Shown here: piece by piece, positions 5,644 to 43,197 of the stretch
How positions within the stretch are numbered: position 1 is the first letter of the stretch
How the letters are laid out: every line of letters starts with the position of its first letter
Assembly (NCBI GenBank): GCA_016213945.1
Contig: JACQZF010000011.1
Location: 1 to 49,537 of the forward strand
Direction of reading: 5' to 3'
From: Nitrospirota bacterium
GTDB taxonomy: Bacteria > Nitrospirota > Thermodesulfovibrionia > UBA6902
DNA length: 49,537 nt
The notes under the pieces: generated by a model
What the model saw: only the letters and a program-made list of their open reading frames with translations
Told to the model about the DNA's origin: nothing
Database searches by the model: none
Made by a program: the position numbers and the translations under genes

Positions 5644-5736
5644 AGTTAACCACAGAGATCACAGAGAAAATGAAGCTAATGTGAATAACTGTTTGAATAT
5701 GAAATTTTTTGATCTCTGTGCCCTCTGTGGTTAATT
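5644..5736. repeat. R4 element (CCACAGAG inverted pair) in a convergent gap
   Basis: TTAACCACAGAGATCACAGAG near 5646-5666 is the complement, with small changes, of GATCTCTGTGCCCTCTGTGG at 5711-5730. The pair spans the gap between the convergent pgk and metallophosphoesterase genes and includes the stop of the latter. A bidirectional terminator role is plausible. Other copies: 17611, 26141, 43056. Confidence 0.75.
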
Positions 5737-6873
5737 GCCGTTTTTAAATTTATCTTCCCGCACCAATTCAATCAATGTCACTTCAGGATGGGAAAGAAAA
5801 CGGACCGGAGGCCCCCACGTGCCGGTGCCACGGCTTACATAAAGATAAGAATTGTTAAGAGGGTTTGAAAGTCCTGAGTGCGACGGATAATAAAATTTTG
5901 TAAGCAGGCTGAAGGGGAATATCTGTCCTTTATGCGTGTGGCCTGAGAGCTGCAAATCAAAAAGGCCGGCCGAGTCTTTGTCCGCAAACGGCCTGTGTTT
6001 AAGCAAAAGGGTGAACTTTCCATGGTCCAATCCGGACAACAATTCCATTTCTGAAATGTTTTTATAAAGTCCAAAAGCTTTTCCGGCAGGATCATCAACC
6101 CCTGCGATATTTATTCCCGCTGTTTCAACAGTTTCTCCTCTTAAAATTGTAAATCCTCCCCTCCTTGTGAAATCCAGCGCCTGTCCAAGCCCGGCATAAT
6201 ACTCGTGATTGCCTGTGATGGCGAATTTCCCGTACCTTGGATTGAACTCATTAAAAAGTTTCTCCAGCCCCTCAAGCCTGTTAATCTGCCCGTCCACAAG
6301 GTCGCCTGTCGACACAAGGATGTCGGGATTTGCAGCTTTCACTTTGCTGAGAATTTTCTTCAATCTTTCCTTTCTTATGATCAGCCCGATATGCACATCC
6401 GAGATCTGCGCTATTTTCAAACTGCTGATATCAGCCGGGAGCTTTGCGGTCTTAATCGTAATGTGTTCAACGCGAATATTCTTTGCATCAAAATAGCCGT
6501 AAGCGCTTATTGTAATTGAGAGCAGAAGCGGCACGAAAAAAGAAATTTTTGGTGAAGTAAACGCTGTTGATAAATTGCTTTTAACTATAAAACCAATGGA
6601 CCGGCAAAGCTCAAATACTACAGAGGCGGAAACGAATAAAAATAAGGCCCCCATCCACAGATAACCGGCATATGACATCAGCCTTGCGATGAATTCATAC
6701 CCGTGCCTTTCCGATGAATAAATAATGAACGGCGAGGAGATCATGGCAGCCATAAAGGCAATCAGAGGGACAGCTTTATTAATTTTAAACCGGAAAGCCG
6801 CCTTTGCCTTAAAAAAGGCATACACATGCATCAGGCCGTATATTAAAAAGAAGAATACTAAAAACCTGCTCAA
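5731..6873 (-). CDS. membrane-anchored metallophosphoesterase (YkuE/YaeI type)
   Basis: Calcineurin-like phosphoesterase with a membrane N-terminus. Four hydrophobic segments are visible at about residues 4-22, 34-53, 68-90 and 111-128. The catalytic domain then carries every metal motif: SDVHIG (D159, H161), STGDLVDG (D191), ITGNHEYY (N222, H223), LLKHRP (H293) and SGHTHKGQ (H312, H314). This architecture matches the YkuE/YaeI group, some members of which cleave UDP-diacylglucosamine or related lipids; the substrate here is unknown. The last residues KNGN and the stop come from the edge of the R4 repeat, so the C-terminus may have been altered by the repeat. Transcribed alone, towards pgk. 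Confidence 0.88.
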   Translation of the reverse strand: MSRFLVFFFLIYGLMHVYAFFKAKAAFRFKINKAVPLIAFMAAMISSPFIIYSSERHGYEFIARLMSYAGYLWMGALFLFVSASVVFELCRSIGFIVKSNLSTAFTSPKISFFVPLLLSITISAYGYFDAKNIRVEHITIKTAKLPADISSLKIAQISDVHIGLIIRKERLKKILSKVKAANPDILVSTGDLVDGQINRLEGLEKLFNEFNPRYGKFAITGNHEYYAGLGQALDFTRRGGFTILRGETVETAGINIAGVDDPAGKAFGLYKNISEMELLSGLDHGKFTLLLKHRPFADKDSAGLFDLQLSGHTHKGQIFPFSLLTKFYYPSHSGLSNPLNNSYLYVSRGTGTWGPPVRFLSHPEVTLIELVREDKFKNGN

Positions 6874-7669: not shown

Positions 7670-9388
7670 ATGAAACAGATCGTTATAGACACCGTTCGGA
7701 ACGCACTCGAAAATCTTAAAGAAAAGTGGGGCCTTGCCGCGACCCCCGATGTAGATGTTGAGGTCCCGAAGAATGAGGCAATGGGTGACTTTGCTACCAC
7801 TGTGGCAATGGGGCTGACAAAGATCCTGAAAAAACCTCCGAGGAAAATCGCTGAGGAGATTGTTGAGGCAATTAATGCAAGCATCCCACTTTTAGAAAAG
7901 GGGGGTGAGGGGGGATTTGACATCTTTGAAAGCGTTACGATTGCAGGGCCCGGATTTATTAATTTTAAATTCAGGAGGGAATTATTTTACAGGGAATTTG
8001 AAAAGCTCCTGACAGAAAGGCATTCAGCGCTGAGGACTGATCTCGGGAAGGGCAGAAGGGTGCAGGTCGAATTTGTCAGCGCAAACCCCACAGGGCCGCT
8101 TCATATCGGTCACGGAAGAGGCGCGGCTGTAGGCAATGCCCTGTGCAACATTCTTAAAGCCGCTGGCTTTGATGTGGAAAGGGAATTCTACATCAATGAC
8201 GCCGGGCTTCAGGTCAAGCACCTCGGGAGGTCCGTGTACGCGCGCTATCAGCAATTATTGGGGAACAATGTCCCATTCCCTGAAGACGGGTATAAGGGCG
8301 AATATATTAAATCCATTTCGGATGAGTTCATCAAAAGGGCCGGCGATAAGTACCTTAACAAAACGTTTGAAGAGTGCGGGGCATTTTTCACAAACGTCGC
8401 TTACAAGAAGATGCTTGCCGATATCGCGCAGGACCTGAGAGACTTCGGCATTGTCTTTGACAGATGGCAAAGTGAAAAAGAGCTTTACGTGAAGCCGGAA
8501 GACAAAGGTCGGAAGTCTGAAGTGGAAAGTTCGATAGACGCATTGGCGGACCGTGGTTATATTTATGAAAAGGATGGCGCTGTATGGTTCAAATCCACTC
8601 TCTTTGGTGATGACAAAGACAGGGTCATTGTAAAGCGGGACGGTGAATACACATACTTCGCCTCTGACATCGCATATCATAAAGACAAGCTCGACAGGGG
8701 ATTTGATACAATTATTGATATATGGGGGGCCGACCACCACGGTTATATCCCAAGGCTTAAATCGGTGCTTGAGGCATTCGGCCTGCCAAGGGAAAAATTC
8801 AGGGTCATACTTATTCAGATGGTTGCATTATTAAGACACGGCGAGCCGGTCCAGATGTCAAAAAGGTCCGGGGAATTTGTGACCCTGCGCGAGGTAATTG
8901 ACGAGGTCGGCGCGGACACTACGAAATTCATTTTCCTTACCCGGCGGGCCGACAGCCAGCTTGAATTCGACATAGAGGTTGCGAAAGAACAGTCAGCGGA
9001 GAACCCGGTATTTTATGTCCAGTACGCGTTTGCCAGGATATCGAGCATATTCAGGCAGGCGGAAGAAAGAGGAGTCGGAAGTCAGAAGTCAGAAGTCAGA
9101 AGTCAAGACATTTCAGCATTAAAAGAAGATGAGGAAATCTCCATCATCAAAAGGCTCCTTCAATACCCGATGGTTTTTGAAGGAGCGGCGCTTTCCATGG
9201 AGCCGCACAGGATAACATATTATCTTCAGGAGCTTTCCGGCGTGTTCCACTCGTACTACAATAAGCACAGGGTGATATCGGATGACGCGGAACTCACGAA
9301 GGCCCGGCTCTCTCTTTGCAGGGCTGTGCAGATTGTGCTTGAAGAGGGCCTGAAAATTTTAGGCGTCAGCGCGCCGGAGAGGATGTGA
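7670..9388 (+). CDS. argS: arginyl-tRNA synthetase with two repeat-derived insertions
   Basis: Class I synthetase that charges tRNA-Arg. N-terminal Add1 domain (VEVPKNEAMGDFATTVAMGL, then FINFKF), HIGH-type motif in SANPTGPLHIGHGRG, a KMSKS-equivalent in VQMSKRSGEFVTLRE, and the C-terminal DALR anticodon domain. Two stretches have no counterpart in the family: SIPLLEKGGEGGF, encoded by an R2 copy at 7885-7916, and GVGSQKSEVRSQ, encoded by an R3 tandem at 9072-9112. Both are in frame and lie at domain surfaces or linkers, so the enzyme is probably functional. ATG 7670 was preferred over TTG 7664 because homologues start at MKQ-like residues and the promoter ends just upstream. Confidence 0.95.
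   Translation: MKQIVIDTVRNALENLKEKWGLAATPDVDVEVPKNEAMGDFATTVAMGLTKILKKPPRKIAEEIVEAINASIPLLEKGGEGGFDIFESVTIAGPGFINFKFRRELFYREFEKLLTERHSALRTDLGKGRRVQVEFVSANPTGPLHIGHGRGAAVGNALCNILKAAGFDVEREFYINDAGLQVKHLGRSVYARYQQLLGNNVPFPEDGYKGEYIKSISDEFIKRAGDKYLNKTFEECGAFFTNVAYKKMLADIAQDLRDFGIVFDRWQSEKELYVKPEDKGRKSEVESSIDALADRGYIYEKDGAVWFKSTLFGDDKDRVIVKRDGEYTYFASDIAYHKDKLDRGFDTIIDIWGADHHGYIPRLKSVLEAFGLPREKFRVILIQMVALLRHGEPVQMSKRSGEFVTLREVIDEVGADTTKFIFLTRRADSQLEFDIEVAKEQSAENPVFYVQYAFARISSIFRQAEERGVGSQKSEVRSQDISALKEDEEISIIKRLLQYPMVFEGAALSMEPHRITYYLQELSGVFHSYYNKHRVISDDAELTKARLSLCRAVQIVLEEGLKILGVSAPERM
7885..7916. repeat. R2 copy inside argS, in frame
   Basis: C-poor left half CCCACTTTTAG, then AAAAGGGGGGTGAGGGGGGA. 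Encodes PLLEKGGEGG in the Add1 domain. Matches the right half of the R2 palindromes elsewhere in the window. Confidence 0.75.
9072..9112. repeat. R3 tandem (GTCAGAA) inside argS, in frame
   Basis: GGAGTCGGAAGTCAGAAGTC with further AGAAGTC units, about four tandem copies of a 7-8 bp word. Encodes GSQKSEVRSQ before the DALR domain. Confidence 0.8.
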
Positions 9389-9461: not shown

Positions 9462-9484
9462 GTCATTCCAGCTTGTCTGGAATC
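9462..9484. repeat. R1 half element
   Basis: GTCATTCCAGCTTGTCTGG followed by AATC, the left half of an R1 hairpin, in the argS-CopD gap. Nothing else convincing is seen between 9389 and 9591. Confidence 0.65.
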
Positions 9485-9591
9485 TTTCTTAAAGGAAGGA
9501 TTACTGCAAGCCGCAACGACGGCACAAGGTATCGCGCAATATGTTTTTGAGCCATACCCGCACCGAGCTATAACTTTAAAGGAGGCTCATA

Positions 9592-11330: not shown

Positions 11331-11398
11331 GTCATTCCGGCTTGCCCGGAATCCTTCTTTAAAAGAGATTCCCGACGCGCTTCGCTTGCGGGAATGAC
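11331..11398. repeat. R1 element, 68 bp
   Basis: Starts GTCATTCCGGCTTGCCCGGA and ends CTTGCGGGAATGAC; internal hairpins match the other R1 copies. The AAGGAGTGG right after its end is the Shine-Dalgarno of the next gene. Confidence 0.8.
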
Positions 11399-11410: not shown

Positions 11411-12388
11411 ATGAACATACTTATCACAGGCGGGACAGGGTTTATCGGGACACCTTTAAGCCGTGAACTGCGCAACGCCGGGCATACGGTTGTCGTCACC
11501 ACAAGACGCCCGTCAGATTCAAAGGACAAGCTGACATGGGACCCGCCGGCGCTTATTTCTGCCGACACAATTTCAGAATTTGATGCGGTCATCAACCTCG
11601 CCGGTGAGCCGATAGCGCCGGGACGCTGGACAAAAAAGCGCAAGGAACTCATCATGTCAAGCCGCGTAAATACGACACGCGCGCTCGTAGATTCAATGAA
11701 AAAAATAATCCCCCCTCGCCCCCCTTTAGAAAAGGGGGGATTTTCTAATATTCCCCTCTTTGATAAAGAGGGGTCAGGGGAGATTTTGAAAGGATTGCCG
11801 AAAGTCCTGATCAGCGCCTCTGCTATAGGCTACTACGGCGATCACAGGGATGAATACGTTACCGAGGATACCCCGCCTGCTTCAGATTTTCTCGCAGAGG
11901 TCTGCAAGGCATGGGAGGCGGAGGCTTTGAGGGCGCAGGAATTTGACATCCGGGTTGTGCTTGTCAGGATCGGAGGCGTGCTGGAATCAGACGGAGGCGC
12001 GCTGCCTGAGATGATGGTCCCTTTTAAATTTTTTCTCGGCGGCCCTATCGGAAGCGGGAAACAATGGTTTTCGTGGATTCACAGAGATGATGTTGTCGGC
12101 ATCATAAAGCACGCGCTTGAAAATGAATCAGTCTCCGGCCCTGTGAATGCTGCCGCGCCTAATCCGGTCACAAACAAAGAATTCAGCTCCGCGCTCGGAA
12201 AGACGCTTGGCAGGCCGTCGTGGCTTGCAGTTCCGGGTTTTATTGTAAAATTAACTCTCGGAGAACTTGGCGGCGTGCTCCTTACAGGGCAGCGGGTCCT
12301 GCCGGAGAAGGCGCTAAAAGCCGGGTATCATTTTAAATATACAGAAGTGAATGAAGCGCTGGCCGCAATATTAAGGGGAAGAAAATAA
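11411..12388 (+). CDS. TIGR01777-type NAD-dependent epimerase (SDR39U1 / YfcH family)
   Basis: Atypical short-chain dehydrogenase with Rossmann motif TGGTGFIG at residues 7-14, then VINLAGEPIAPGRWTKKRK, the signature SSRVN, LISASAIGYYGDH, the WE-EA stretch and a C-terminal DUF1731-like part (NPVTNKEFSSALGKTLGRP, then FIVKLTLGE). The substrate is unknown in all bacteria. Length 325 is about 25 above usual because two R2 copies (11709-11783) insert PPRPPLEKGGFSNIPLF and following residues between KKI and KVLISASA. The insertion stays in frame. ATG has AAGGAGTGG upstream. Followed after 4 nt by the ThrRS editing-domain gene. Confidence 0.88.
   Translation: MNILITGGTGFIGTPLSRELRNAGHTVVVTTRRPSDSKDKLTWDPPALISADTISEFDAVINLAGEPIAPGRWTKKRKELIMSSRVNTTRALVDSMKKIIPPRPPLEKGGFSNIPLFDKEGSGEILKGLPKVLISASAIGYYGDHRDEYVTEDTPPASDFLAEVCKAWEAEALRAQEFDIRVVLVRIGGVLESDGGALPEMMVPFKFFLGGPIGSGKQWFSWIHRDDVVGIIKHALENESVSGPVNAAAPNPVTNKEFSSALGKTLGRPSWLAVPGFIVKLTLGELGGVLLTGQRVLPEKALKAGYHFKYTEVNEALAAILRGRK
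11709..11783. repeat. two adjacent R2 palindromes inside the TIGR01777 gene
   Basis: First copy 11709-11740: CCCCCCTCGCCCCCCTTTAG and AAAAGGGGGGA. Second copy 11751-11783: TTCCCCTCTTTGATAAAGAG then GGGTCAGGGGAGA. Each is a C-run/G-run palindrome with a short loop. Translated in frame. Confidence 0.85.
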
Positions 12389-16834: not shown

Positions 16835-16867
16835 ATATTAATCAGTAATTAGTATGAATACCCGTTT

Positions 16868-16947
16868 GTCATGCCCGCAGGTAGTAAGCTGGCATCCAGA
16901 ACTTATTTAAAAGACTGGATTCCCGCTCAACAGACTGCGGGAATGAC
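16868..16947. repeat. R1 element, 80 bp
   Basis: Very close to the copy at 173-252, with the same length and the same ATTCCCGCTCAACAGACTGC core near the right end. Followed by ATGGACTCCTTAGTAAA, which has a relative after the third copy (36372-36388). Confidence 0.85.
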
Positions 16948-16989
16948 GCTTACGTATTTTTATATGGACTCCTTAGTAAATTACTTAAT

Positions 16990-17610: not shown

Positions 17611-17715
17611 TTAACCACAGAGGCCACAGAGACTAATAGAGGATGAGCGGACTGCATTTTTATCTTCATAACTTCTTATCATCTCAACTTCTTTTCTCTG
17701 TGTTCTCTGTGGTGA
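17611..17715. repeat. R4 element (CCACAGAG inverted pair)
   Basis: TTAACCACAGAGGCCACAGA at 17611-17630 and CTCTGTGTTCTCTGTGG at about 17696-17712 form inverted arms around a 65-bp core that includes CATCTCAACTTCTTT. The core is partly shared with the copy at 43056. Confidence 0.75.
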
Positions 17716-19626: not shown

Positions 19627-20457
19627 ATGAAGCACATTAGCAACGACGCGGCGTCTTTTCATTGCAGCGAAGACATCCTGCCATCTCTTGCCAGATTTTG
19701 TGAAATCATAAAACGTTATCCGATTTCTCTTGAGCCGTACAGGGGCATAAATGAAAAAGCGCAGGCGGCATTTCAGGAGGGAGGCTTTCAGCTCTATTCA
19801 ACAGTGAAAAAGACAACGCTTGTTTACGATCCCTCTGAGGGCTGTTTTATAAAGGTCCTTCATCCATTGAATATCAAGGACAAAATTTCTTTTCTTTTTT
19901 CAGACAAGGCAAGTGCCATTTACAACATCTCTGAACAGTTGCTCTCAAAAGGTGTAAAGGCAATGAAGGTGACAGCGTACGGGTCTTTGAAAAAAGGAAG
20001 ACAGCCCTTCTTTGCCGTGAAAAAGGCTGAAGGCGAATCTCTTTACGACATTATGATAAGGGGAAAGAGGACGCTTGATACACAAATTCTTAAAAATGTT
20101 CTTGACGAAGTGGCAGGACTCCACCGCCTCGGGTACTGGTTTGGTGACGCTCATCTTTCGCATATCTTTATAAAAGACACCGGTGTGTCTGCCTTGATAG
20201 ACATTGACGGCATCAGGAGGAACAGGCCTTACATGCTCAAGCGCCTCGCAAAAGACATTGCCGGCCTGAATCATCCGGAGCTGCCTTTAACAAAAGATGA
20301 AAAGAGATCTCTCCTGAATTACTATGTTGATGCTGTTGGAATTGACAAAAAGACAACCCCCTTCAATTCCCCCCTTAAAAAGGGGGGACAAAGAGGGGTT
20401 AAAAAGAAATTCATACAGCTTTTAAAATACTACACGGAGCGGAGATGGAAGGATTAA
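19627..20457 (+). CDS. WaaP/InaA-like lipopolysaccharide kinase
   Basis: 276 residues with a protein-kinase-like fold of the LPS heptose kinase type: a Lys in GCFIKVLHPL (candidate ATP Lys), an AVKKAEGESLYDIM hinge, a degenerate catalytic loop FGDAHLSHIFI and a DFG-equivalent LIDIDGI. The usual HxDL-x-x-N is changed to GDAHLSH. Expected to phosphorylate core sugars at the inner membrane. An R2 copy near the C-terminus adds TPFNSPLKKGGQRGVKKK in frame. It overlaps the following GT2 gene by 13 nt. Start ATG has no clear Shine-Dalgarno. Confidence 0.72.
   Translation: MKHISNDAASFHCSEDILPSLARFCEIIKRYPISLEPYRGINEKAQAAFQEGGFQLYSTVKKTTLVYDPSEGCFIKVLHPLNIKDKISFLFSDKASAIYNISEQLLSKGVKAMKVTAYGSLKKGRQPFFAVKKAEGESLYDIMIRGKRTLDTQILKNVLDEVAGLHRLGYWFGDAHLSHIFIKDTGVSALIDIDGIRRNRPYMLKRLAKDIAGLNHPELPLTKDEKRSLLNYYVDAVGIDKKTTPFNSPLKKGGQRGVKKKFIQLLKYYTERRWKD
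20355..20401. repeat. R2 copy inside the kinase gene, in frame
   Basis: ACCCCCTTCAATTCCCCCCT then TAAAAAGGGGGGACAAAGAG and GGGT. Encodes PFNSPLKKGGQRG, the same peptide style as other R2 copies. Confidence 0.85.
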
Positions 20458-21203
20458 GTATAATCATCCCGGTCTACAACAAGCTTGAGGCAACCGTGAA
20501 GTGCATAAACTTCATAAATGAACATAATAAAAATTGTTCTTTTGAAATTATTGTCGTTGATAACGGGTCAACAGATGAGACACAGAAGGTGTTTGATGCG
20601 GGACACAAAGGGGTCACCTACGTCCGAAATGACGAAAACCTCGGCGTGGCAAAGGCGCTGAATATCGGAGCGAAGGCGGCGAAATATGATGTCCTGTGTT
20701 TCATGCATAACGATCTCTTTGTCTTCAGGGAAGGCTGGGCAGGCGCAATACATAATTTTATTGCAAACACGGCAAATGCCGGAGTGGCCGGGCTTTACGG
20801 CGCAAAGACCCTGCGTAAAGACGGCAGTTTCAGAGGCAGGACAATAGTTCACGCAAAAAAGGACAGCCCCGCGATAAAAAGGCCTTTTGAAAAAGTGGCG
20901 GTTGTTGACGGCCTGCTTATGGCAATGAGCAAAACCGTGTTTGAAAAGACCGGCGGATTTCACGAGGACTTCAGGATGCATTATTATGATAAAGATATTT
21001 CAATGAGGGCCGTAAAGGTCAGGCTGGATAATTATGTCCTTAACATTTCTTTTGAGCACGCCTGCGGCACAACAAGAGCGCAGATAAAAGCTGATGACTC
21101 GATACGCGATGAGGCGCAGGAAAAATTTATTGAAATATGGAAACATTCCCTGCCAGTGGATGTAAGCACATGGCGGGAGAGGATCGGGTATTTGTTTCGG
21201 TGA
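20445..21203 (+). CDS. GT2 family glycosyltransferase
   Basis: 252 residues, GT-A fold: IIPVYNKLEATVKCI at the N-terminus, IIVVDNGSTDET (nucleotide Asp), NLGVAKALNIGAKAA, FMHNDLFVFREGW (DxD replaced by NDL), VVDGLLMAMSKTVFEKTGGF and a DKDISMRA stretch. Similar to rhamnosyltransferase-like family 2 enzymes; sugar unknown. Its start lies inside the end of the kinase gene. An R2 copy begins directly after its stop. Confidence 0.85.
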   Translation: MEGLSIIIPVYNKLEATVKCINFINEHNKNCSFEIIVVDNGSTDETQKVFDAGHKGVTYVRNDENLGVAKALNIGAKAAKYDVLCFMHNDLFVFREGWAGAIHNFIANTANAGVAGLYGAKTLRKDGSFRGRTIVHAKKDSPAIKRPFEKVAVVDGLLMAMSKTVFEKTGGFHEDFRMHYYDKDISMRAVKVRLDNYVLNISFEHACGTTRAQIKADDSIRDEAQEKFIEIWKHSLPVDVSTWRERIGYLFR

Positions 21204-21240
21204 AAATCCTCCCCTTGACAAGGGGAGGTTGGGAGGGGTT
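21203..21240. repeat. R2 copy, left border of the DUF559 gene
   Basis: AAAATCCTCCCCTTGACAAG then GGGAGGTTGGGAGGGGTT. It is the inverse orientation of the copy at 21601-21636; the reverse complement of that copy differs at only a few positions. GGGAGGGG (21231-21238) is placed as Shine-Dalgarno for TTG 21243. Confidence 0.88.
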
Positions 21241-21242
21241 GT

Positions 21243-21638
21243 TTGATAAAGATTTTTAACAGGAAAGAGTGTAAAGATAACAGGCGGGAACTAAGAGGTA
21301 ATATGCCGCCTGCAGAAATCATACTCTGGTCAGAGTTAAAAAACAAAAGACTTGACGGCTATAAATTCAGACGGCAGTATAGTATTGAAAACTATGTGGT
21401 TGATTTTTATTGCCCGGAATTAAAATTGGCAATTGAAGTTGATGGTCAGTCACATTATATTGATGGAGCAACCCGGCATGATAAAAAAAGGCAGGACATT
21501 ATAGAGTCTTTCGGTATCAATATTCTACGATTTACCAATAGAGAAGTTTATGAGAATATCGAAGGGGTGCTGATTAAATTAAAGCAGCATATTGGGAAAA
21601 AACCTCCCCTGACCCCTCCTTGTCAAGGAGGGGATTAA
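21243..21638 (+). CDS. DUF559 endonuclease-like protein flanked by inverted R2 repeats
   Basis: 131 residues of the DUF559 family, a Vsr-like PD-(D/E)XK nuclease fold. Typical motifs: NMPPAEIILWSELKNKRLDG, YKFRRQYSIENYVVDFYC (Asp of the active site), LAIEVDGQSH (E-x-D) and ILRFTNREV. The first start is TTG 21243, 4 nt after GGGAGGGG of the left repeat; ATG 21303 would still keep the core domain. The last residues PPLTPPCQGGD and the stop are encoded by the right R2 repeat. DUF559 proteins are suspected nucleases with no settled function. The exact fit between inverted repeats suggests a mobile or repeat-processing cassette inserted between GT2 and asnB genes. Confidence 0.88.
   Translation: MIKIFNRKECKDNRRELRGNMPPAEIILWSELKNKRLDGYKFRRQYSIENYVVDFYCPELKLAIEVDGQSHYIDGATRHDKKRQDIIESFGINILRFTNREVYENIEGVLIKLKQHIGKKPPLTPPCQGGD
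21601..21636. repeat. R2 copy, right border of the DUF559 gene
   Basis: AACCTCCCCTGACCCCTCCT then TGTCAAGGAGGGGATT. Encodes the C-terminal PPLTPPCQGGD of the DUF559 protein. Its AAGGAGG is also the only Shine-Dalgarno-like sequence before asnB, about 13 nt from its ATG. Confidence 0.88.
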
Positions 21639-21646
21639 CAAAAATT

Positions 21647-23629
21647 ATGTGCGGCATATTCGGATTTTTTTCAAAGAACAGAAAGATAACGACAAGGGAG
21701 CTTCACATGTCTTTGAAGGCACTCCATCACAGGGGGCCTGACAATGCCGGAGTTGTTTTCTTTCAGGACGGATCAAACACGTACTCCCCTGCCGCTTCTA
21801 TCCCCGACGGGCAGTGGTCTTCATTGCTGGCCCACAAACGCTTAAGCATTATTGACCTTTCGGACGCAGCCAGCCAGCCGATGTGTAATGAAGACGGGGC
21901 GGTCTGGATCTCATATAACGGGGAGATATACAACTTTCAGGAGATAAGAAGCGATCTGCAGTCACGGGGGCACACGTTCAAATCAAGGTCAGACACAGAG
22001 GTAATAATTCATGGTTACGAGGAATGGGGGATAGATGTTATAGACAGACTGCGGGGGATGTTCGCGTTCGCCCTGCTGGACAAGAGGAACAACCTCCTGT
22101 TTCTTGTGCGGGACAGGCTCGGCGTCAAGCCCCTGAAGTATTTTTACGATGACGAAACGTTTATCTTCGCATCGGAATTGAAAGGGCTCATTCACCTGAT
22201 ACCACGCAAGCTTGATCTTGATTCCGTAAACAGATTTCTTTCCCTCAAGTACATTCCTTCGCCGGACACCATTCTTGAGGGTGTTAAGAAGATTTCCCCG
22301 GGGCAATATTTGAAACTTGATCTGGACCCCGGAAGGCTGACAACTGAAACATACTGGAAGCCGAAGTTTTACCCTAAATCACGCCTCTCCTTTGATGAGG
22401 CGAAAAGTGATTTCAGAAAACTCCTGTCGGATTCCGTAGTCATGCGGACCATCTCTGATGTGCCCATCGGCGTCTATTTAAGCGGCGGCATGGATTCAAG
22501 CGCCATGGTTGCCATTTTAAAAGACAACGGCATAAAGGACATCAATACCTTCACCATAAAGTTCGACAGGCCGGGTTACGACGAATCGGAATACGCAAAA
22601 GCCGTTGCATACCGTTTTCATACCAGACACCACGAATACAGGACGCCGGCCCTCTCGTATAACGGCGTTCAGGAGATCGTGGATTCCCTGGACGAGCCGT
22701 TTGGAGATCCTTCATATATCCCGACTTATTATCTTTCAAAGTTTACTTCCGAGCACGTCAAGGTCATCCTTTCAGGTGACGGAGGCGATGAAATTTTAGG
22801 CGGGTATAAAAGATACTTCATTCACGCGCGCGGCAGGATACTGAAATTCCTGCCGCGCATTCAGCGGAATCTCATGAAAAAGCTTCCGCCTGAGATCAAC
22901 AAGAGGAAATTCATCGGCAGGCTTCAGAGGATTGCCGGGGACCTGTCAGCAGGCTATTGGGGATCATACCTTCTGAGGTCCAACGGCTTCAGCGACAGCT
23001 TTAAAAGATACACGATGACGCCGGAGTTTTATTCGACGCTCAACAGCTTTTCTCTTGAAGACATTATTCATAAAAATCCCCCTGCATCCCCCTTTACTAA
23101 AGGGGGACTTGACTCCCCTCTATCAAGAGGGGTTAGGGGTGTGTTTGATGCTGACTTTAATAACATCTCCAGCACAATTGAACGGCTTATCTGGATAGAC
23201 ATGCAAACCTATCTGCCGGATTACATTCTCACAAAGACGGACCTTGCCTTGATGGCGCATTCAGTGGAAGGCAGGAACCCCTTTGTTGATTATCGTCTCA
23301 TGGAATTTACCAACAGCCTGCCGCCTGAATACAAATTTAAAGGAGGCGGCAAATACATCCTCAAAAAGATCCTTGAAGATTATATCCCCAGAGAGATAAT
23401 CTACCGGAAAAAGATGGGCTTCAGCCCACCGATAAAATACTGGTTCAGGGACAACCCCGGCCTGCTGAATGATATCTTTGCAGAAGGCGATTTCGTATCA
23501 AAAGACATCTTTGATCTGAAGCAGGCACACAAGGTAATTGAGAAATTCAGGACAACCGAAATCAATATCTCCGAACAGTTGTGGCTGTTGATAGTGCTGG
23601 AGTTATGGAGACGGACATACAAAATTTAA
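21647..23629 (+). CDS. asnB: asparagine synthase (glutamine-hydrolysing)
   Basis: Glutaminase plus synthetase of 660 residues. ATG 21647 gives MCGIFGFF, exposing the catalytic Cys2; an upstream in-frame ATG at 21620 lies in the repeat and would destroy this. Then HHRGPDNAGV, SYNGEIYNF, RSDTEVIIHGYEEWG, FAFALLDKR and the synthetase P-loop SGGMDSSAMVAIL, SGDGGDEILGGYKRY. AsnB-like enzymes in polysaccharide clusters may amidate uronic acids rather than make asparagine. Two R2 copies (23074-23142) insert PPASPFTKGGLDSPLSRGVR near residue 480-500, in frame, in the C-terminal domain. Confidence 0.93.
   Translation: MCGIFGFFSKNRKITTRELHMSLKALHHRGPDNAGVVFFQDGSNTYSPAASIPDGQWSSLLAHKRLSIIDLSDAASQPMCNEDGAVWISYNGEIYNFQEIRSDLQSRGHTFKSRSDTEVIIHGYEEWGIDVIDRLRGMFAFALLDKRNNLLFLVRDRLGVKPLKYFYDDETFIFASELKGLIHLIPRKLDLDSVNRFLSLKYIPSPDTILEGVKKISPGQYLKLDLDPGRLTTETYWKPKFYPKSRLSFDEAKSDFRKLLSDSVVMRTISDVPIGVYLSGGMDSSAMVAILKDNGIKDINTFTIKFDRPGYDESEYAKAVAYRFHTRHHEYRTPALSYNGVQEIVDSLDEPFGDPSYIPTYYLSKFTSEHVKVILSGDGGDEILGGYKRYFIHARGRILKFLPRIQRNLMKKLPPEINKRKFIGRLQRIAGDLSAGYWGSYLLRSNGFSDSFKRYTMTPEFYSTLNSFSLEDIIHKNPPASPFTKGGLDSPLSRGVRGVFDADFNNISSTIERLIWIDMQTYLPDYILTKTDLALMAHSVEGRNPFVDYRLMEFTNSLPPEYKFKGGGKYILKKILEDYIPREIIYRKKMGFSPPIKYWFRDNPGLLNDIFAEGDFVSKDIFDLKQAHKVIEKFRTTEINISEQLWLLIVLELWRRTYKI
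23074..23142. repeat. two R2 palindromes inside asnB, in frame
   Basis: First: AATCCCCCTGCATCCCCCTT, then TACTAAAGGGGGA. Second: ACTCCCCTCTATCAAGAGGG then GTTAGGGGTGTG. Encodes PPASPFTKGG and SPLSRGVRGV. Confidence 0.88.
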
Positions 23630-24751: not shown

Positions 24752-24819
24752 GCCTTATTCTGTTATTCCGGCTTGTCCAGCATCTTTCTTTTAGACAAGC
24801 CGGAATAACAGAATAAGGC
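24752..24819. repeat. 26-bp perfect inverted repeat (R1-type), possible terminator
   Basis: Arms 24752-24777 and 24794-24819 (GCCTTATTCTGTTATTCCGG... and complement) are perfect with a 16-nt loop. It contains the R1 words TTATTCCGGCTTGTC and GACAAGCCGGAATAA. Lies between the convergent GT4 and antitoxin genes, so it may end both transcripts, although no T-run follows. Confidence 0.85.
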
Positions 24820-26055: not shown

Positions 26056-26211
26056 GATAACATGACTATAGGCGCTCTAATCCTGTTTGGTGGAGGTATT
26101 ATCGCTATTTTAACTGCTTATCCTAAAAGCGGCAGTTCATTTACCACGGAGGCACAGAGACACGGAGAGGACAACGGGAGTCCGGAAAGTTTTGTACCAC
26201 CACTTGGGTGA
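26053..26211 (+). CDS. 52-residue single-helix membrane protein ending in repeat-derived sequence
   Basis: MDNMTIGALILFGGGIIAIL is one transmembrane helix. From about residue 30 the sequence FTTEAQRHGEDNG is translated from the R4 repeat at 26141. Shine-Dalgarno GAGAGAGGA lies 5 nt before the ATG, but inside a hairpin. Third member of the small membrane operon; the original C-terminus may have been replaced by the repeat. Function unknown. Confidence 0.45.
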   Translation: MDNMTIGALILFGGGIIAILTAYPKSGSSFTTEAQRHGEDNGSPESFVPPLG

Positions 26212-30032: not shown

Positions 30033-30342
30033 TTACTCCCTCCTTTTTTACATGGTTTAAAATACTGACTGCGATGGTGCAAGAAACCTGCACGTATTGT
30101 TTACTTAGCTCACCACCTCCTTCGTTGATCCTGAGATAAATAATTTGATCTTATTGTTACTTTTACGCCTGCGTATCCCCAATAATTTATAGTCCCTTCT
30201 ATATGTTAAGGGGAATTTTACAATCTAATAATAAAAACGTCAAGTGAAAAATACCCCAAAAATAACAAAAGCAAATTTTTTTATAAGAGGGAAAAACCAG
30301 TATCAAGCAAGGGGTATCTGAAAGATGTGTAGTTATTTTGCT
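30033..30342. other. non-coding upstream region of the OMP operon
   Basis: AT-rich, no credible gene on either strand. On the minus strand a strong AAGGAGGTGGTGAGC stretch (around 30106-30123) is followed at once by a stop, so it starts no ORF. A short hairpin GTGCA/TGCAC lies near 30078-30094. It must hold the OMP promoter, but I could not pick one with confidence. Confidence 0.5.
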
Positions 30343-30410
30343 GTCATTCCAGCTTGTCTGGCTGTGTCATTCCTTAAAACCAGGAAGGATTCCAGACAAG
30401 CTGGAATGAC
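30343..30410. repeat. R1 element with 19-bp perfect arms
   Basis: GTCATTCCAGCTTGTCTGG at 30343-30361 and its exact complement at 30392-30410, enclosing a second partial GTCATTCC. Confidence 0.85.
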
Positions 30411-30510
30411 AGGCAAAGAAAGATGCAGCTTGGTAGAATTAAGCGCGGAAGTTGGGGTAATGTAATAAGCAGGCAGCGCTTAAATAAACCTGTGTATGAA
30501 CTTGCTATTG

Positions 30511-30538
30511 CTGTCATTCGGGCAAGCCCGAATGACAG
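30511..30538. repeat. R1-type 13-bp palindrome
   Basis: CTGTCATTCGGGC, AA, GCCCGAATGACAG: perfect 13-bp arms with a 2-nt loop. Flanked by imperfect outer arms ACCTGTGTAT (about 30488) and ATGCACAGG (about 30552). Confidence 0.75.
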
Positions 30539-30585
30539 AACCAGCGAATTTATGCACAGGCTCTAAAATAAGACTGGAAAGAATT

Positions 30586-35090: not shown

Positions 35091-36256
35091 AAAAAAATAC
35101 ACCTTCCACGGAGGGGCGGAGAGTTTTTCAGGCAGCTTTATTGAGAAGCTCGCGGATGACGGACACGAGATGCATATCTTTGCGATAAAGTGGGAGGCAA
35201 GCGGTACGCATAAAAATATCCACTTTCATAAAGTGCCCGCGATCACATTCAATTCATTCCTCAGGGACCTCTCGTTTGCAATATCTTCATACTTCCTGCT
35301 GAAAACGCAGAGAAGAAAGTTTGACATAATCCAGTCTCACGACAAGACAATTTATCAGGACATCTACCGCGCAGGGGACGGGTGTCATATTGAGTGGTTG
35401 AGGCAGAGATGGAAGAGGATTGGAATTGCGGGCAAACTTTCCATGGTCCTGAATCCTTATCACTGGCTCATTCTTGATCTGGAGCATGAAATTTTAAGAA
35501 GGCACAGGTATAAAAAGATCATCGCCATTTCCGAGATGGTCAAAAAGAATATCATCGACAATTACAAGGTACCTCCTTCCGATATAGAGGTGATTTACAA
35601 CGGCGTGGACACAGATAAATTCCATCCGGCAAACAGAGAAAAGTTCAGAAATGAAATAAGACGGAAGCACGGATTATCTGAAAATGATTTTGTCGTGCTC
35701 TTTATGGGTTCGGGTTTTGAAAGAAAGGGCGTCGGGGCTTTGGTACAGGCAGTAGAGAGGATAAAGGAGCCGGTTGCGGTTCTGGTAGTGGGGAAGGGAA
35801 AACACCCCCCTGTGTCCCCCCTTAATAAGGGGGGGAACCCCTCTGCATCCCCCCTTACCAAGGGGGGAATTAAGGGGGGTTAAGCAAAAGATAATCTTCT
35901 GCGGGCCGCAGAAGGACAATTATAAATACTATGCTGCCGCTGACATATTTGTCTTCCCGACAATCTATGAGCCGTTCGGCAATGTCCATCTTGAGGCGCT
36001 GGCAAGCGGGCTTCCGGTGATAACAACAAAAAACAGCGGCGCCGCTGAGGTAATCAAAGACGGTTTGCATGGTTTTGTTATAGAGGAGCCGGATGACGTC
36101 AACGCTATTTCGGAGAAGATAAAATATTTTATGGATAATAAAGACAAGCTGGAGTCAATGAGCAAAAACGCAAGACAGCTTGCCGGGGAGTTTACTTTTG
36201 AAAAGCATATTGAGAAAATACGAGAGTTGTACGAGAGGGTAATTGATGCGTCATAG
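35071..36256 (+). pseudogene. GT4 glycosyltransferase split by a frameshift at an R2 repeat
   Basis: The N-terminal part (35071-35883, GTG start) runs through RKKYTFHGGAESFSGSFIEKL, VIYNGVDTDKF, VVLFMGSGFERKGVGALV and then into R2-coded PPVSPLNKGGNPSASPLTKG and TAA at 35881. The rest of the enzyme continues one frame over: KIIFCGPQKDNYKYYAAADI, VFPTIYEPFGNVHLEALASG, VITTKNSGAAEVI to TGA at 36256. Removing one G from the last G6 run (35874-35879) would restore a single frame reading KGGIKGVKQKIIFCGP. This exactly parallels the in-frame R2 peptides elsewhere, so either a real homopolymer slip or a sequencing error has split the gene. Confidence 0.85.
35803..35880. repeat. two R2 palindromes at the glycosyltransferase frameshift
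   Basis: CACCCCCCTGTGTCCCCCCT then TAATAAGGGGGGGAAC, followed by CCCTCTGCATCCCCCCTTAC then CAAGGGGGGAATTAAGGGGG. Long C and G runs make this a likely slippage site. Confidence 0.9.
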
Positions 36257-36277: not shown

Positions 36278-36353
36278 GTCATGCCCGAAGTTCTTAATCG
36301 GGCATCCAGTTCTTCGGCTGTATGGATTCCCGCTTACTGACTGCGGGAATGAC
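36278..36353. repeat. R1 element, 76 bp
   Basis: GTCATGCCCGAAGTTCTTAA, inner complement CGGGCATCC, right end CTGCGGGAATGAC. Third member of the long R1 type. Confidence 0.85.
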
Positions 36354-36399
36354 AAGTAGTGTGGCTTATTCATGGACTACTTAGTGAAAGGATAGAGCT

Positions 36400-37143: not shown

Positions 37144-38192
37144 AAATGCTTATCATCAAACCCAGCTCGCTGGGCGACATTATTCATGCCCTGCCTTTTC
37201 TGAAGGCGGTGAAAGATACCTTCCCAAAGGCACGAATTGACTGGGTGATAAGCGAAAATTTTAAAGACATCCTCACAGGCAATCCTCTTATAGACAGGCT
37301 TATTGTCTTTGATAAGGATTCGTTAAAGAAAATCGGCAAGCTGTTTTCTATAACATCGGCACTGCTTAAGGAGCTGAAGGCGCGGCGCTATGACATTGTT
37401 GTTGATCTTCAGGGACTATTAAGAAGCGGGGTGATGACATTATTTTCAGTGGCCCCGGTGAAAGTAGGTTTTGCGGACGCGCGTGAAGGGAGCACTTTTT
37501 TTTATGATAAAAAAGTTTCCGTCAACAAAAACATGCACGCAGTAGACAAATGCCTTGAGATTGCAAAGGCAATCGGCGTAAAGGTGAGCAAGGCGGAGTT
37601 CCCGCTTCATGTTGATAAGGCATCAAAGGCAAAAGCCAAAGAGCTTATCGGCAACATCGGGGAATATCTTGTGATAGTTCCATCTGCGAGGTGGGAGACG
37701 AAAAGGTGGCCTGCTGAAAATTTCGCATCGCTTATTGGAAAGCTTTCAATTCCATGCGTCATTGTTGGAAGCAAGGGGGACAAGAAGATAGTGCAGGAGA
37801 TTATGGATAGAAGACAGAAGACAGAAGACAGAAGACAGATACCCCCCCATCCCCCCCTTGGCAAGGGGGGGCAAAGGGGGGTTATCGACCTTTGCGGTAA
37901 AACCGATCTGAAAGAGCTCGTTGCCTTGATTGCCGGGGCGCGGGCGGTGGTTAGCAATGATTCAGGCCCAATGCACATTGCCGCCGCGCTAAATAAACCA
38001 CTTGTCGCGATCTTCGGCCCCACTGATCCGGCAAAGACCGGCCCGTACGGCTGGCAGAAAAATAAAAATATGAAAGTAATAAGGGCAAACGTCACATGCG
38101 GCCCTTGCAGAAAGAGGAAATGCAGGGAGTTTATCTGCATGGAAAAGCTAAGCGCTGAAAAAGTGTTTAAAGCGGTGAAAGAACTTTTATGA
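37140..38192 (+). CDS. waaC: LPS heptosyltransferase, GT9 (WaaC-like)
   Basis: 350 residues from ATG 37140. MLIIKPSSLGDIIHALPFLK with the catalytic Asp of GT9 enzymes, IDWVISENFKDIL, DLQGLLRSGVM, VPSARWETKRWPAENF (donor site), and the C-terminal SNDSGPMHIAAALNKPLVAIFGPTDPAKTGPYG. Adds heptose to Kdo of the inner core; the Asp-Gly differences between WaaC and WaaF are not decisive here. An R3 block and an R2 copy (37806-37883) insert RRQKTEDRRQIPPHPPLGKG and a few more residues before DLCGKTDL, in frame. The first in-frame start GTG 37122 is less likely. Confidence 0.87.
   Translation: MKMLIIKPSSLGDIIHALPFLKAVKDTFPKARIDWVISENFKDILTGNPLIDRLIVFDKDSLKKIGKLFSITSALLKELKARRYDIVVDLQGLLRSGVMTLFSVAPVKVGFADAREGSTFFYDKKVSVNKNMHAVDKCLEIAKAIGVKVSKAEFPLHVDKASKAKAKELIGNIGEYLVIVPSARWETKRWPAENFASLIGKLSIPCVIVGSKGDKKIVQEIMDRRQKTEDRRQIPPHPPLGKGGQRGVIDLCGKTDLKELVALIAGARAVVSNDSGPMHIAAALNKPLVAIFGPTDPAKTGPYGWQKNKNMKVIRANVTCGPCRKRKCREFICMEKLSAEKVFKAVKELL
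37806..37840. repeat. R3 tandem (GACAGAA) inside the heptosyltransferase gene
   Basis: Four tandem GACAGAA units (TAGAAGACAGAAGACAGAAG and on). It contains CAGAAGACAGAAGACAG, whose exact reverse complement lies in the signal-peptide region of the DUF3108 gene at 38269-38285. Confidence 0.88.
37841..37883. repeat. R2 copy inside the heptosyltransferase gene, in frame
   Basis: ACCCCCCCATCCCCCCCTTG, GCAAGGGGGGGCAAAGGGGG, GTT. Encodes PPHPPLGKGGQRGV. Sits right after the R3 block. Confidence 0.9.
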
Positions 38193-38968
38193 AAAAGTTC
38201 AGAAGTCAGAAGTCAGAAGTCAGAAGTCAGAAAAGAATTATCGTATTGCTCAGTCTGTGCTCTGTCCTCTGTCTTCTGTCTTCTGTTTTCTGTCTTTCTG
38301 TCGAGGCCGAACAGTCGATCAATAAAAGATTCGTTTACTACATATACTGGTCTGGGATAAAGGCGGGTGAGGCGGTCCTGAATTTTGAAGATACGCCGGA
38401 GGGCGTCATTATTAAAACTCTCGCGACATCCGCGCCGGTGATCTCCATTTTTTATAAAGTGGAGGATTTCGCGCAAAGCACTTTGAAGCCCGATGGCTAT
38501 CCGAAGAGTTTTATCCTGAAGGCAAGCGAAGGGAGGCACAAAAGGGACAAGGAGACGTACTTTGAATCTATGCCGGACGGAAAGTATAAGATAAATTATT
38601 ACGATAAAATAAAAGACAAGAGGGCTGAATTCTTCTTCGATCAACCGGCATATGACCCGTTGTCAGCTTTCTTCGCAATGACAAAGATGTCATTGGAGGC
38701 GGGACAGTCTAAATTTATCGACATCTTTGACAGCAAGAAGCTATATCATACTGAAATTCAGGTTTTGAAAAAAGAAAAGGTCCGCGTGCCCGCAGGAGAG
38801 TTCGACACGATCCTCGTGAAGCCTCTTTTAAAATCAGAGGGGCTTTTCCGCAAGACAGGAGATATCTTTATCTGGGCGACTGACGACGATAGAAAATTAC
38901 CCGTCCTTTTAAAAAGCAAGGCCGTAATCGGCTCCTTCACCGTTGAGCTGGCCGAAGGGGATTACTGA
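38189..38968 (+). CDS. DUF3108 periplasmic protein with a repeat-built signal peptide
   Basis: 259 residues. DUF3108 core: FVYYIYWSGIKAGEAVLNFE, then STLKPDGYPKSFIL, FFFDQPAYDPLSAFFAMT, VRVPAGEFDTILVKPLLKS and a WATDDDRKLPVLLKSKA end. Family function is unknown; periplasmic location is expected. The N-terminus MKKFRSQKSEVRSQKRIIVL followed by LSLCSVLCLLSSVFCLSVEA is a plausible signal peptide (cleavage after VEA), but both its basic part and hydrophobic core are translated from R3 repeats at 38197-38316. ATG overlaps the heptosyltransferase stop by 4 nt, so the start is well fixed. Confidence 0.85.
   Translation: MKKFRSQKSEVRSQKRIIVLLSLCSVLCLLSSVFCLSVEAEQSINKRFVYYIYWSGIKAGEAVLNFEDTPEGVIIKTLATSAPVISIFYKVEDFAQSTLKPDGYPKSFILKASEGRHKRDKETYFESMPDGKYKINYYDKIKDKRAEFFFDQPAYDPLSAFFAMTKMSLEAGQSKFIDIFDSKKLYHTEIQVLKKEKVRVPAGEFDTILVKPLLKSEGLFRKTGDIFIWATDDDRKLPVLLKSKAVIGSFTVELAEGDY
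38197..38312. repeat. R3 inverted pair inside the DUF3108 signal-peptide region
   Basis: Left arm: tandem AGAAGTC units (38199-38231). Right arm: CTCTGTCCTCTGTCTTCTGT and similar units (38260-38311). The arms are nearly complementary and form one hairpin over the first 40 codons. Confidence 0.85.
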
Positions 38969-39001: not shown

Positions 39002-39133
39002 GTCACTCCCGCTTGTCGGGAGCCCTTCCGTAATCTGTCATGCTTGCTTGTCCAGCATCTTCTTTGCCTGTCATTCCAGCTTGTCTGGAATCCTTCCTTA
39101 AAACCAAGACGATTCCGGACAAGCCGGAATGAC
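39002..39133. repeat. cluster of three R1 elements
   Basis: GTCACTCCCGCTTGTCGGGA at 39002; GTCATGCTTGCTTGTCCAGC at about 39037; and a full R1 hairpin 39070-39133 from GTCATTCCAGCTTGTCTGGA to CCGGACAAGCCGGAATGAC. Fills the gap between the DUF3108 and MetE-like genes. Confidence 0.8.
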
Positions 39134-39160
39134 AAAGCGAGGCCATTAGATTTACAGCTT

Positions 39161-40834: not shown

Positions 40835-41940
40835 AAGATATCATCGGACAGGAAAAGGCCCTCGGCATTCTCCGGGGCTGCATTGAAAAAAACCGTATCC
40901 CTCACGCGCTTTTATTTGCGGGCGATGAAGGCATCGGCAAGAGGCTTACCGCGATCAACTTTGCAAAAGCGCTTAACTGTCAGAAGGCAGAAGTCAGAAC
41001 ACAGAACACAGAGGAAAGTCCGGGGTTTGATTTTGGGACTGAAGATAGTCTGAATTCTGAACTCTTTGCACCGGAGTCTCAGACTGACAACACCGTCCCC
41101 CAACCCCCAACCCCCAACCCCCTTATCGATTCCTGCGATGCCTGTCCTTCATGCGTAAAGATAGACAAGGGGATCCATCCGGACTTTTTTCTGATCGAGA
41201 CTGAAGGCGACGGGGACCAGATAAAGATCGAGGCGGTAAGGCAGCTTGAAGAAGCTTTGTCCTACAAACCCTATGAAGCCAGCTATAAGATCGCGATTGT
41301 CGACAATGCCGACAAGATGAATTCATCGGCGGCCAATGCCTTTCTGTCCACGCTTGAGTCGCCTCCGTCACAAAGCATTATAATCCTTGTTTCATCAAAA
41401 CCCGACAGGCTCCTGCCGACAATCCGCTCAAGATGCCAGAGGATAAACTTCGCGCCTCTGCCCGTTGAAATGATGAGCGGCCTGGTGAAAGAGAAATATA
41501 AAAAGCTGGACGATGAGCAGGCATTACTTTTAAGTGTGCTGTCAGGCGGCAGGCTCGGATACGCCCTGAATGAAAACCTGGTCGCCCAAAGAGACAGGTC
41601 TTTCAATATTTTCAACCAAATGCTGAGCGCCCCCGAAGATGATATACGCGATGACAAATTATCCATGGAGGAATGGTTTGACTGGGCGCAGCTCTGGCTG
41701 AGGGACATTGCCGTATTTAAGGCGACAGGGCAAACGGCCTTCCTGATCAATAAAGACAGGGCAGGCGAGATACAGGACCTTGCCGGGAAGGCGGCCCTGA
41801 AAGATATACTAAAACTGGCCCGCGAGCTTTATAATATAAGGGTACAGTTAAATTTCAATCTCAACGAAAAGCTCACGTTTAACTACACAAGCCTTTTAAT
41901 GAGAAAAAGGTTAGGGAAAACATATGCAGGAAAACAATGA
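40825..41940 (+). CDS. holB: DNA polymerase III delta-prime subunit
   Basis: Clamp-loader subunit. Start IIGQEKALGILRGCIEKNRI, HALLFAGDEGIGKRL (degenerate Walker A), zinc cluster CDACPSCVKI, HPDFFLIE, VDNADKMNSSAANAFLSTLESPP and SSKPDRLLPTIRSRCQRI. Between FAKALNC and CDACPSC lie about 45 residues of repeat-derived sequence (QKAEVRTQNTEESPG up to TPNPLI) from an R3 block and a CAACCCCC tandem, in frame, so the zinc-site region is split. The C-terminal collar is complete. ATG overlaps the tmk end. Confidence 0.93.
   Translation: MALKDIIGQEKALGILRGCIEKNRIPHALLFAGDEGIGKRLTAINFAKALNCQKAEVRTQNTEESPGFDFGTEDSLNSELFAPESQTDNTVPQPPTPNPLIDSCDACPSCVKIDKGIHPDFFLIETEGDGDQIKIEAVRQLEEALSYKPYEASYKIAIVDNADKMNSSAANAFLSTLESPPSQSIIILVSSKPDRLLPTIRSRCQRINFAPLPVEMMSGLVKEKYKKLDDEQALLLSVLSGGRLGYALNENLVAQRDRSFNIFNQMLSAPEDDIRDDKLSMEEWFDWAQLWLRDIAVFKATGQTAFLINKDRAGEIQDLAGKAALKDILKLARELYNIRVQLNFNLNEKLTFNYTSLLMRKRLGKTYAGKQ
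40977..41124. repeat. R3 block plus CAACCCCC tandem inside holB, in frame
   Basis: CAGAAGGCAGAAGTCAGAAC then ACAGAACACAGAGG at the left; three CAACCCCC units (41100-41123) at the right. The stretch between looks like former non-coding DNA, with words such as TGAATTCTGAACTC. Confidence 0.7.
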
Positions 41941-43055: not shown

Positions 43056-43197
43056 TTGAACCACGGAGAACACAGAGGCACAGAGACACGGAGAAAATAA
43101 AAATTGAAGTTGAGAAGTAGAGTGTCCCGTTTTGTTATCTTCCTTACTTCTTATATTCTTTCTTTGCGCCTCTGTGTCTCAGTGACTCAGTGGTTTT
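43056..43197. repeat. R4 element (CCACGGAG inverted pair)
   Basis: TTGAACCACGGAGAACACAG and GGCACAGAGACACGGAG (43054-43094) face GCGCCTCTGTGTCTCAGTGA and CTCAGTGG (43167-43194). Fills the ricT-metG gap; metG has no Shine-Dalgarno beyond it. Confidence 0.75.

Follow-up and report, generated by a model that had tools for sequence, protein, structure and literature searches.

A DUF559 nuclease gene bounded by inverted C-rich hairpin repeats as a candidate mobile one-gene cassette in Nitrospirota

The window analysed here, a 49,537-nucleotide stretch of DNA from a Nitrospirota bacterium (assembly GCA_016213945.1, contig JACQZF010000011.1), carries a cassette of ~438 bp on the forward strand (21203-21640), in which the gene for a DUF559 nuclease (PD-(D/E)xK, Vsr-like; Pfam PF04480) lies between two copies of a repeat, R2. 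Each R2 unit consists of a 9-bp hairpin and a C-rich arm on one side only, and because of this one-sided arm the repeat has an orientation. The left unit (21203-21242, reverse strand) has its hairpin outside (21208-21228; perfect 9-bp stem, fold z -2.3) and its G-rich arm inside (21230-21239). The right unit (21600-21636, forward strand) is oriented the opposite way, with the C-rich arm inside and the hairpin (21613-21633; z -2.8) outside, resulting in a layout with both arms towards the gene and both hairpins outward. The open reading frame between them (21243-21638, forward strand, 131 aa) was assigned a TTG start, preceded by 4 nt by the Shine-Dalgarno-like sequence GGGAGGGG (21231-21238) from the left R2 arm; this start codon, close behind the Shine-Dalgarno sequence, is uncertain, and the next in-frame ATG is found at residue 20. 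At the other end, the C-terminus PPLTPPCQGGD is encoded by the right R2 unit, directly followed by the stop codon TAA (21636-21638). These observations bear out the original prediction that the gene sits between two inverted repeats, of which the left supplies the Shine-Dalgarno sequence and the right encodes the last 11 residues and ends at the stop. Its description of R2 as a palindrome holds for the hairpin but not for the unit as a whole, which is no simple palindrome since the one-sided arm makes it directional.

The DUF559 domain (21267-21590, forward strand) matched PF04480 with E=5.7e-32 and 110 bits compared to a gathering threshold of 20.6. An alignment of 98 related sequences, used for conservation and co-divergence and free of stop-bearing domains, showed conservation of 98% or more at E25, D54, E65, D67, H71 and D80; a stop codon inside the domain was present in 6 of 150 cases. 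The best PDB folds for the predicted structure (pLDDT 74) were 3hrl (NGO0050), 3r3p (the homing endonuclease I-Bth0305I, TM 0.75 to target) and 1vsr (Vsr). Together with the conserved acidic and histidine residues, this model points to a PD-(D/E)xK/Vsr-like nuclease fold, the class to which DUF559 proteins have been assigned (PMC1189080). The median dN/dS over 50 pairs was 0.13, indicating purifying selection. Matches to homing endonucleases in PHROG were weak, and a role as anti-phage defence protein was rejected, as PADLOC yielded only partial weak matches, the best with 31 bits to part of mREase_II. For one DUF559 protein, Caulobacter VsrA, a role in mismatch repair has been proposed (PMC12907096).

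Ten hairpins of the R2 class were counted in the window. In the genome as a whole (3.5 Mb), a pattern search detected ~150 YCYYYYYTTNNNAARRRRRGR hairpins compared to 7 with the pattern reversed; DUF559 is represented there by a single gene. Gene-free inverted pairs with the layout arm-hairpin-hairpin-arm are exemplified at 11711-11787, where the outer arms pair around the two hairpins (z -3.2); further pairs are located at 35805-35881 (z -3.5) and at 23073-23145 (z -3.8), the latter in frame in asnB (peptide NPPASPFTKGGLDSPLSRGVRGV). Another copy (37836-37883) is in frame in a glycosyltransferase-9/heptosyltransferase-like open reading frame (IPPHPPLGKGGQRG), and at 20355-20400 and 43942-43989 a solo R2 has an arm on either side. 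Elsewhere in the genome, a solo R2 of 41 nt is 95% identical to the right cassette unit (G000:C14:77475-77514). An Rfam search of the window found no RNA family. Free pairs and cassettes differ in orientation: the former were (+,-) in 23 cases versus a single (-,+), folding with an outer stem around the hairpins (z -3.2 to -3.8), whereas cassettes were (-,+), that is hairpin-arm-gene-arm-hairpin, in 69 cases versus 13 (+,-). Joining the two cassette ends would create exactly the layout of the free pair, which suggests, without proving it, an excised, circular or end-joined intermediate.

Comparison with relatives provided both filled and empty sites. At the glycosyltransferase/asnB junction, DUF559 and R2 are both absent, as a block, from the orthologous junction of two congeneric species, G370 (85-88% identity) and G397; the empty junctions hold unrelated short repeats of 38 bp and 31 bp instead. 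Within asnB, the in-frame R2 pair of the window is missing in G370; conversely, G370 has a C-rich hairpin close to the N-terminus where the window has none. A cassette located between paaD and paaZ of Deinococcus psychrotolerans, with inverted ends of ~57 bp that are nearly perfect, is absent in Deinococcus sp. QL22. None of the three empty sites (G370, G397 and Deinococcus sp. QL22) contains R2 or a C-rich hairpin. No target-site duplication was seen in the filled/empty alignments, in which the flanks have diverged. The filled site with its empty counterparts supports the originally suggested cassette nature of the unit, and it is in our view very probable that the cassette moves as a unit, with its palindromes as the ends.

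Whole cassettes were also found in frame inside other genes, namely those for PriA, leucyl-tRNA synthetase (LeuRS), the methionine synthase MetH, a GHMP kinase, an M14 peptidase, HsdR and an Eco57I-type methylase, as well as HsdM, HsdS and Mod-like proteins, which were named by eye from their sequences. In the PriA host, two stretches align to solved PriA and DUF559 fills the gap between them. Inverted flanks were detected in 46 of 58 DUF559 loci located in large frames, and Pfam scans of eight hosts, PriA, LeuRS and MetH included, revealed no Hint/intein domain. In PriA of Gastranaerophilales/Cyanobacteriota (L155, L281, L283 and L298), the in-frame DUF559 cassette lies just upstream of the Walker A motif, and several species apparently share this site. 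An IspE-like GHMP kinase open reading frame (L278:334-2064) carries two DUF559 domains.

The generality of the arrangement was evaluated on a sample of 150 DUF559 loci out of 396 genomes of the phylum, 147 of which entered the flank test; a single-protein scan of genome contigs had given 13 loci, and the wider sample was obtained through Pfam searches. The test covered 200 bp on either side of the domain, with other genes of the same loci as controls, and counted inverted flanks at a local score of at least 18 and hairpin flanks at a score of at least 8 on both sides; the statistic is independent of locus orientation. Inverted flanks were present at 118 of 147 DUF559 loci (80%) compared to 14 of 497 control genes (2.8%; Fisher 8e-84), and hairpins on both sides at 65% compared to 3%. 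Outside the phylum, the corresponding numbers were 24/29 (83%) versus 0/22 in Cyanobacteriota, 24/30 (80%) versus 1/11 in Alphaproteobacteria and 13/27 (48%) versus 0/16 in Bacteroidota; a mixed set gave 28/36. Control genes were mostly from the window's own phylum, those of all other groups together scoring 1/101. The fraction of DUF559 loci failing the test was ~20% in the phylum and 52% in Bacteroidota. Among 153 intact small cassettes, the median length from hairpin to hairpin was 441 bp (interquartile range 423-477), and hairpin-coded peptides such as HPPLNPLPSREGK, SPQPSPVKGEGER and SPLTGEGQGGG were frequent in the frames upstream and in the C-terminal tails. Some lineages show the reverse arm orientation: the D. 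psychrotolerans plasmid locus L308 (EHF33_RS17430), with its near-perfect ~57-bp ends, has the arms outside, opposite to the window's phylum. Domain identity was correlated with repeat similarity (Mantel 0.43, permutation maximum 0.12), shared host ancestry contributing to this value.

In the same 396 genomes, hairpins matching YCYYYCCN7GGRRRGR were counted using the reversed pattern as control, and an excess of at least 20 was taken as threshold. This excess was reached by 65 of 141 genomes with a strong DUF559 match (46%) versus 14 of 216 without any (6%; p=1.6e-22). The median excess was higher with strong DUF559 in 16 of 19 families and in 21 of 28 genera (p=0.003 each), and among positives it rose with DUF559 copy number (rho 0.40, p=9e-7). 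Several of the 14 hairpin-rich genomes without DUF559 are 65-85% complete, and others 93-100%. Both comparisons thus agree with the original prediction: inverted R2-like hairpins are enriched around DUF559 genes of relatives, and their abundance tracks presence and copy number of the gene. Since the arrangement recurs across phyla and DUF559 genomes are richer in hairpins, the gene and the hairpins appear to belong to a single system.

A Y1 transposase was rejected as driver of the hairpins, as their excess tracks DUF559 and not Y1_Tnp. Mobilisation of the hairpins by RAYT-type (HUH) transposases, with DUF559 as an incidental gene, has a known precedent in RAYT/REP (PMC3116915), and Y1_Tnp, the RAYT family, is present in 286 of the 396 genomes; yet Y1_Tnp adds nothing once DUF559 is given (p=0.81), the excess occurs in only 12 of 168 genomes with Y1_Tnp and without DUF559 compared to 10 of 23 with the reverse combination, and several hairpin-rich genomes have no detected Y1_Tnp, among them G026 with 1434 hairpins and 11 DUF559 matches, so that this reading is the least credible of all and in the window's phylum close to refuted.

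Two of the control genes with inverted flanks were assigned by eye to the families GxxExxY (PF13366, likewise PD-(D/E)xK) and 23S_rRNA_IVP (PF05635, four-helix). In their own tests, inverted flanks were detected in 24 of 30 and 25 of 29 (86%) loci, respectively, and hairpins on both sides in none of either. On visual inspection, short tandem-like repeats flank IVP, and CACAGAG-like or CACGGATT-like repeats flank GxxExxY. Because each family has its own repeat class, matching of gene and repeat is favoured over generic hotspots. Because 23S-IVP has such flanks and is not a known nuclease, a nuclease is not required for the inverted-flank architecture in general, and what moves these elements may be something other than a shared nuclease activity. 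At slightly below even odds, we propose a class of one-gene elements in bacterial genomes, each a small protein family with a matched bounding repeat (DUF559 with C-rich hairpins, GxxExxY with the CACAGAG type, 23S-IVP with tandem-like repeats) that it may spread in trans.

The window itself contains further repeats. CACAGAG/CACGGAG repeats at 26145-26168, 43069-43094, 5648-5737 and 17613-17714 resemble the bounds of the GxxExxY gene of the same genome (PF13366; L351, G000:C14:23812-24162) and probably represent solo copies belonging to a second pairing of gene and repeat. Tandem-like repeats of AGAAGTCAG / AGAAGACAG at 9069-9109, 37807-37839, 38199-38294 and 40980-41010 are in style like the 23S_rRNA_IVP flanks; such repeats are in frame in ArgS (RGVGSQKSEVRSQ) and in the heptosyltransferase-like open reading frame (DRRQKTEDRRQ). 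A many-copy inverted-repeat family, GTCATTCCGGCTTGTCCGGAATC... / GTCATGCCCG...GCGGGAATGAC, occurs at 170-257, 9462-9493, 11331-11362, 16865-16952, 24752-24819, 30322-30560, 36278-36362 and 39002-39143.

Taken together, we favour, with some margin for doubt, a mobile one-gene nuclease cassette that terminates on either side in a hairpin unit, the two being inverted, and whose non-autonomous derivatives are the solo and paired hairpins; DUF559 would be the mover. In such a system DUF559 would recognise the hairpin units, either in folded single-stranded form or as cruciforms, and nick or cut at the unit or at the target. Repair would then copy the cassette or the bare unit to a new place, and in-frame insertions would survive even within essential genes. 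This copying by repair would be analogous, in different ways, to homing endonucleases and RAYT/REP systems. That DUF559 itself mobilises R2 in trans is what we infer.

The alternative that fares best, although we regard it as rather unlikely, treats DUF559 as cargo: the units would be spread by the host itself, through template switching at replication or through recombination, or by another enzyme, and the gene would be a selfish or useful passenger between two of them. The 23S-IVP protein, a four-helix protein bounded by inverted repeats, and the numerous gene-free R2 copies are consistent with this. Against it, the repeat class differs between the three families, hairpins on either side being confined to DUF559 (65% compared to 0% for IVP and GxxExxY), and therefore the gene matters. 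In addition, hairpin excess tracks DUF559 (logit coefficient 2.5) more than IVP (0.9), GxxExxY (0.2) or Y1_Tnp, and DUF559 is under strong purifying selection. A housekeeping role is improbable. In that case DUF559 would be a Vsr/MutH-like repair nuclease acting on palindromes or mismatches, with R2 as its ribosome-binding site and terminator, for which the mismatch-repair proposal for VsrA (PMC12907096), the Shine-Dalgarno sequence from the left unit and the right unit ending at the stop all speak; it leaves unexplained the in-frame cassettes in PriA, LeuRS, MetH and HsdM, presence and absence at one junction and the co-divergence of repeat and protein. Still more improbable is insertion of DUF559 genes into pre-existing R2 targets, in the manner of insertion sequences entering REP, as described for ISPpu9 (PMC8450116). 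The three empty sites are free of R2 and C-rich hairpins, other small families are flanked by different repeats, and insertion into the middle of a (+,-) pair would leave (+,-) flanks whereas cassettes are mostly (-,+), which disfavours simple insertion of a gene into an R2 pair.

The favoured nuclease cassette shares several properties with known systems. Like REP/REPIN-RAYT (REPtron; IS200/IS605-like), it combines dispersed palindromes, solo and in inverted pairs, with a single dedicated gene that has inverted members of the dispersed palindrome family at its flanks, co-divergence of gene and repeat, and in-frame intragenic copies (PMC3116915, PMC3733652). Unlike RAYT, the enzyme of the window is a PD-(D/E)xK DUF559 protein and not an HUH Y1 (PF01797), R2 abundance is independent of Y1_Tnp, and neither REP foot, GTAG or CGTC, was found in the R2 units (21203-21244 and 21600-21640). 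Hence R2-DUF559 would work like REP/RAYT without being a member. Of the original interpretation, the cassette and the link to hairpin number are supported; mobilisation in trans in the manner of RAYT is a candidate mechanism, the DUF559 fold being unrelated to RAYT and one further family with inverted-repeat flanks, 23S-IVP, not being a known nuclease. For CGTC REPs no dedicated transposase has been reported, whereas the R2 unit comes with a nuclease gene. Palindromic inserts retained in conserved coding genes are likewise known from Rickettsia palindromic elements and intragenic REPs (PMC3733652). With homing endonucleases the system shares persistence within conserved genes, and the Vsr-like I-Bth0305I is the closest characterised fold (3r3p), the likeness here consisting of fold similarity and filled/empty sites; it differs in having no intron or intein, in its bounding palindromes and in its very many non-autonomous copies. 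An autonomous unit with terminal inverted repeats (~57 bp in Deinococcus L308) plus many short derivatives recalls pairs of insertion sequences and MITEs, but the cassette has no transposase, and no target-site duplication was identified between the diverged flanks. Vsr, VsrA and E. coli YcjD (COG2852) have the same DUF559/Vsr-like fold and family, while their known or proposed role is mismatch repair and a link to palindromes has not been reported for them (PMC12907096, PMC1189080). As originally stated, no established description of a DUF559-R2 link was found in the literature searched, which stopped short of subscription journals and bioRxiv.

The E. coli gene ycjD (L309, L312; NC_000913 1351407-1351760) belongs to the DUF559 family; its 3' end carries a C-rich hairpin that has decayed, and a C-rich palindrome with ~19 copies per E. 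coli genome is located further downstream. Similar repeats are known as BoxC elements. At the sapF-fabI site, presence of ycjD varies among E. coli lineages (PMC12817139).

The DUF559 gene and its hairpins look like a previously unrecognised mobile-DNA system. C-rich palindromic repeats of a very common group are thereby given a proposed partner gene, and a DUF that Pfam search finds in about half of the sampled genomes is given a testable job. If true, this would represent a RAYT/REP-like arrangement on a nuclease fold; to our knowledge, the DUF559-type fold is not known as a transposase on its own. It would also explain the strings PPLTPPCQGGD, HPPLNPLPSREG and SPLTGEGQGGG within essential proteins, and a very small hairpin-directed nuclease might be of use as a tool. 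If the wider class of one-gene elements is real, a large share of the dispersed repeats in environmental genomes that have so far lacked an explanation would be accounted for, as would peptides inserted in frame in essential proteins. With YcjD as a family member in E. coli, the idea is directly testable.
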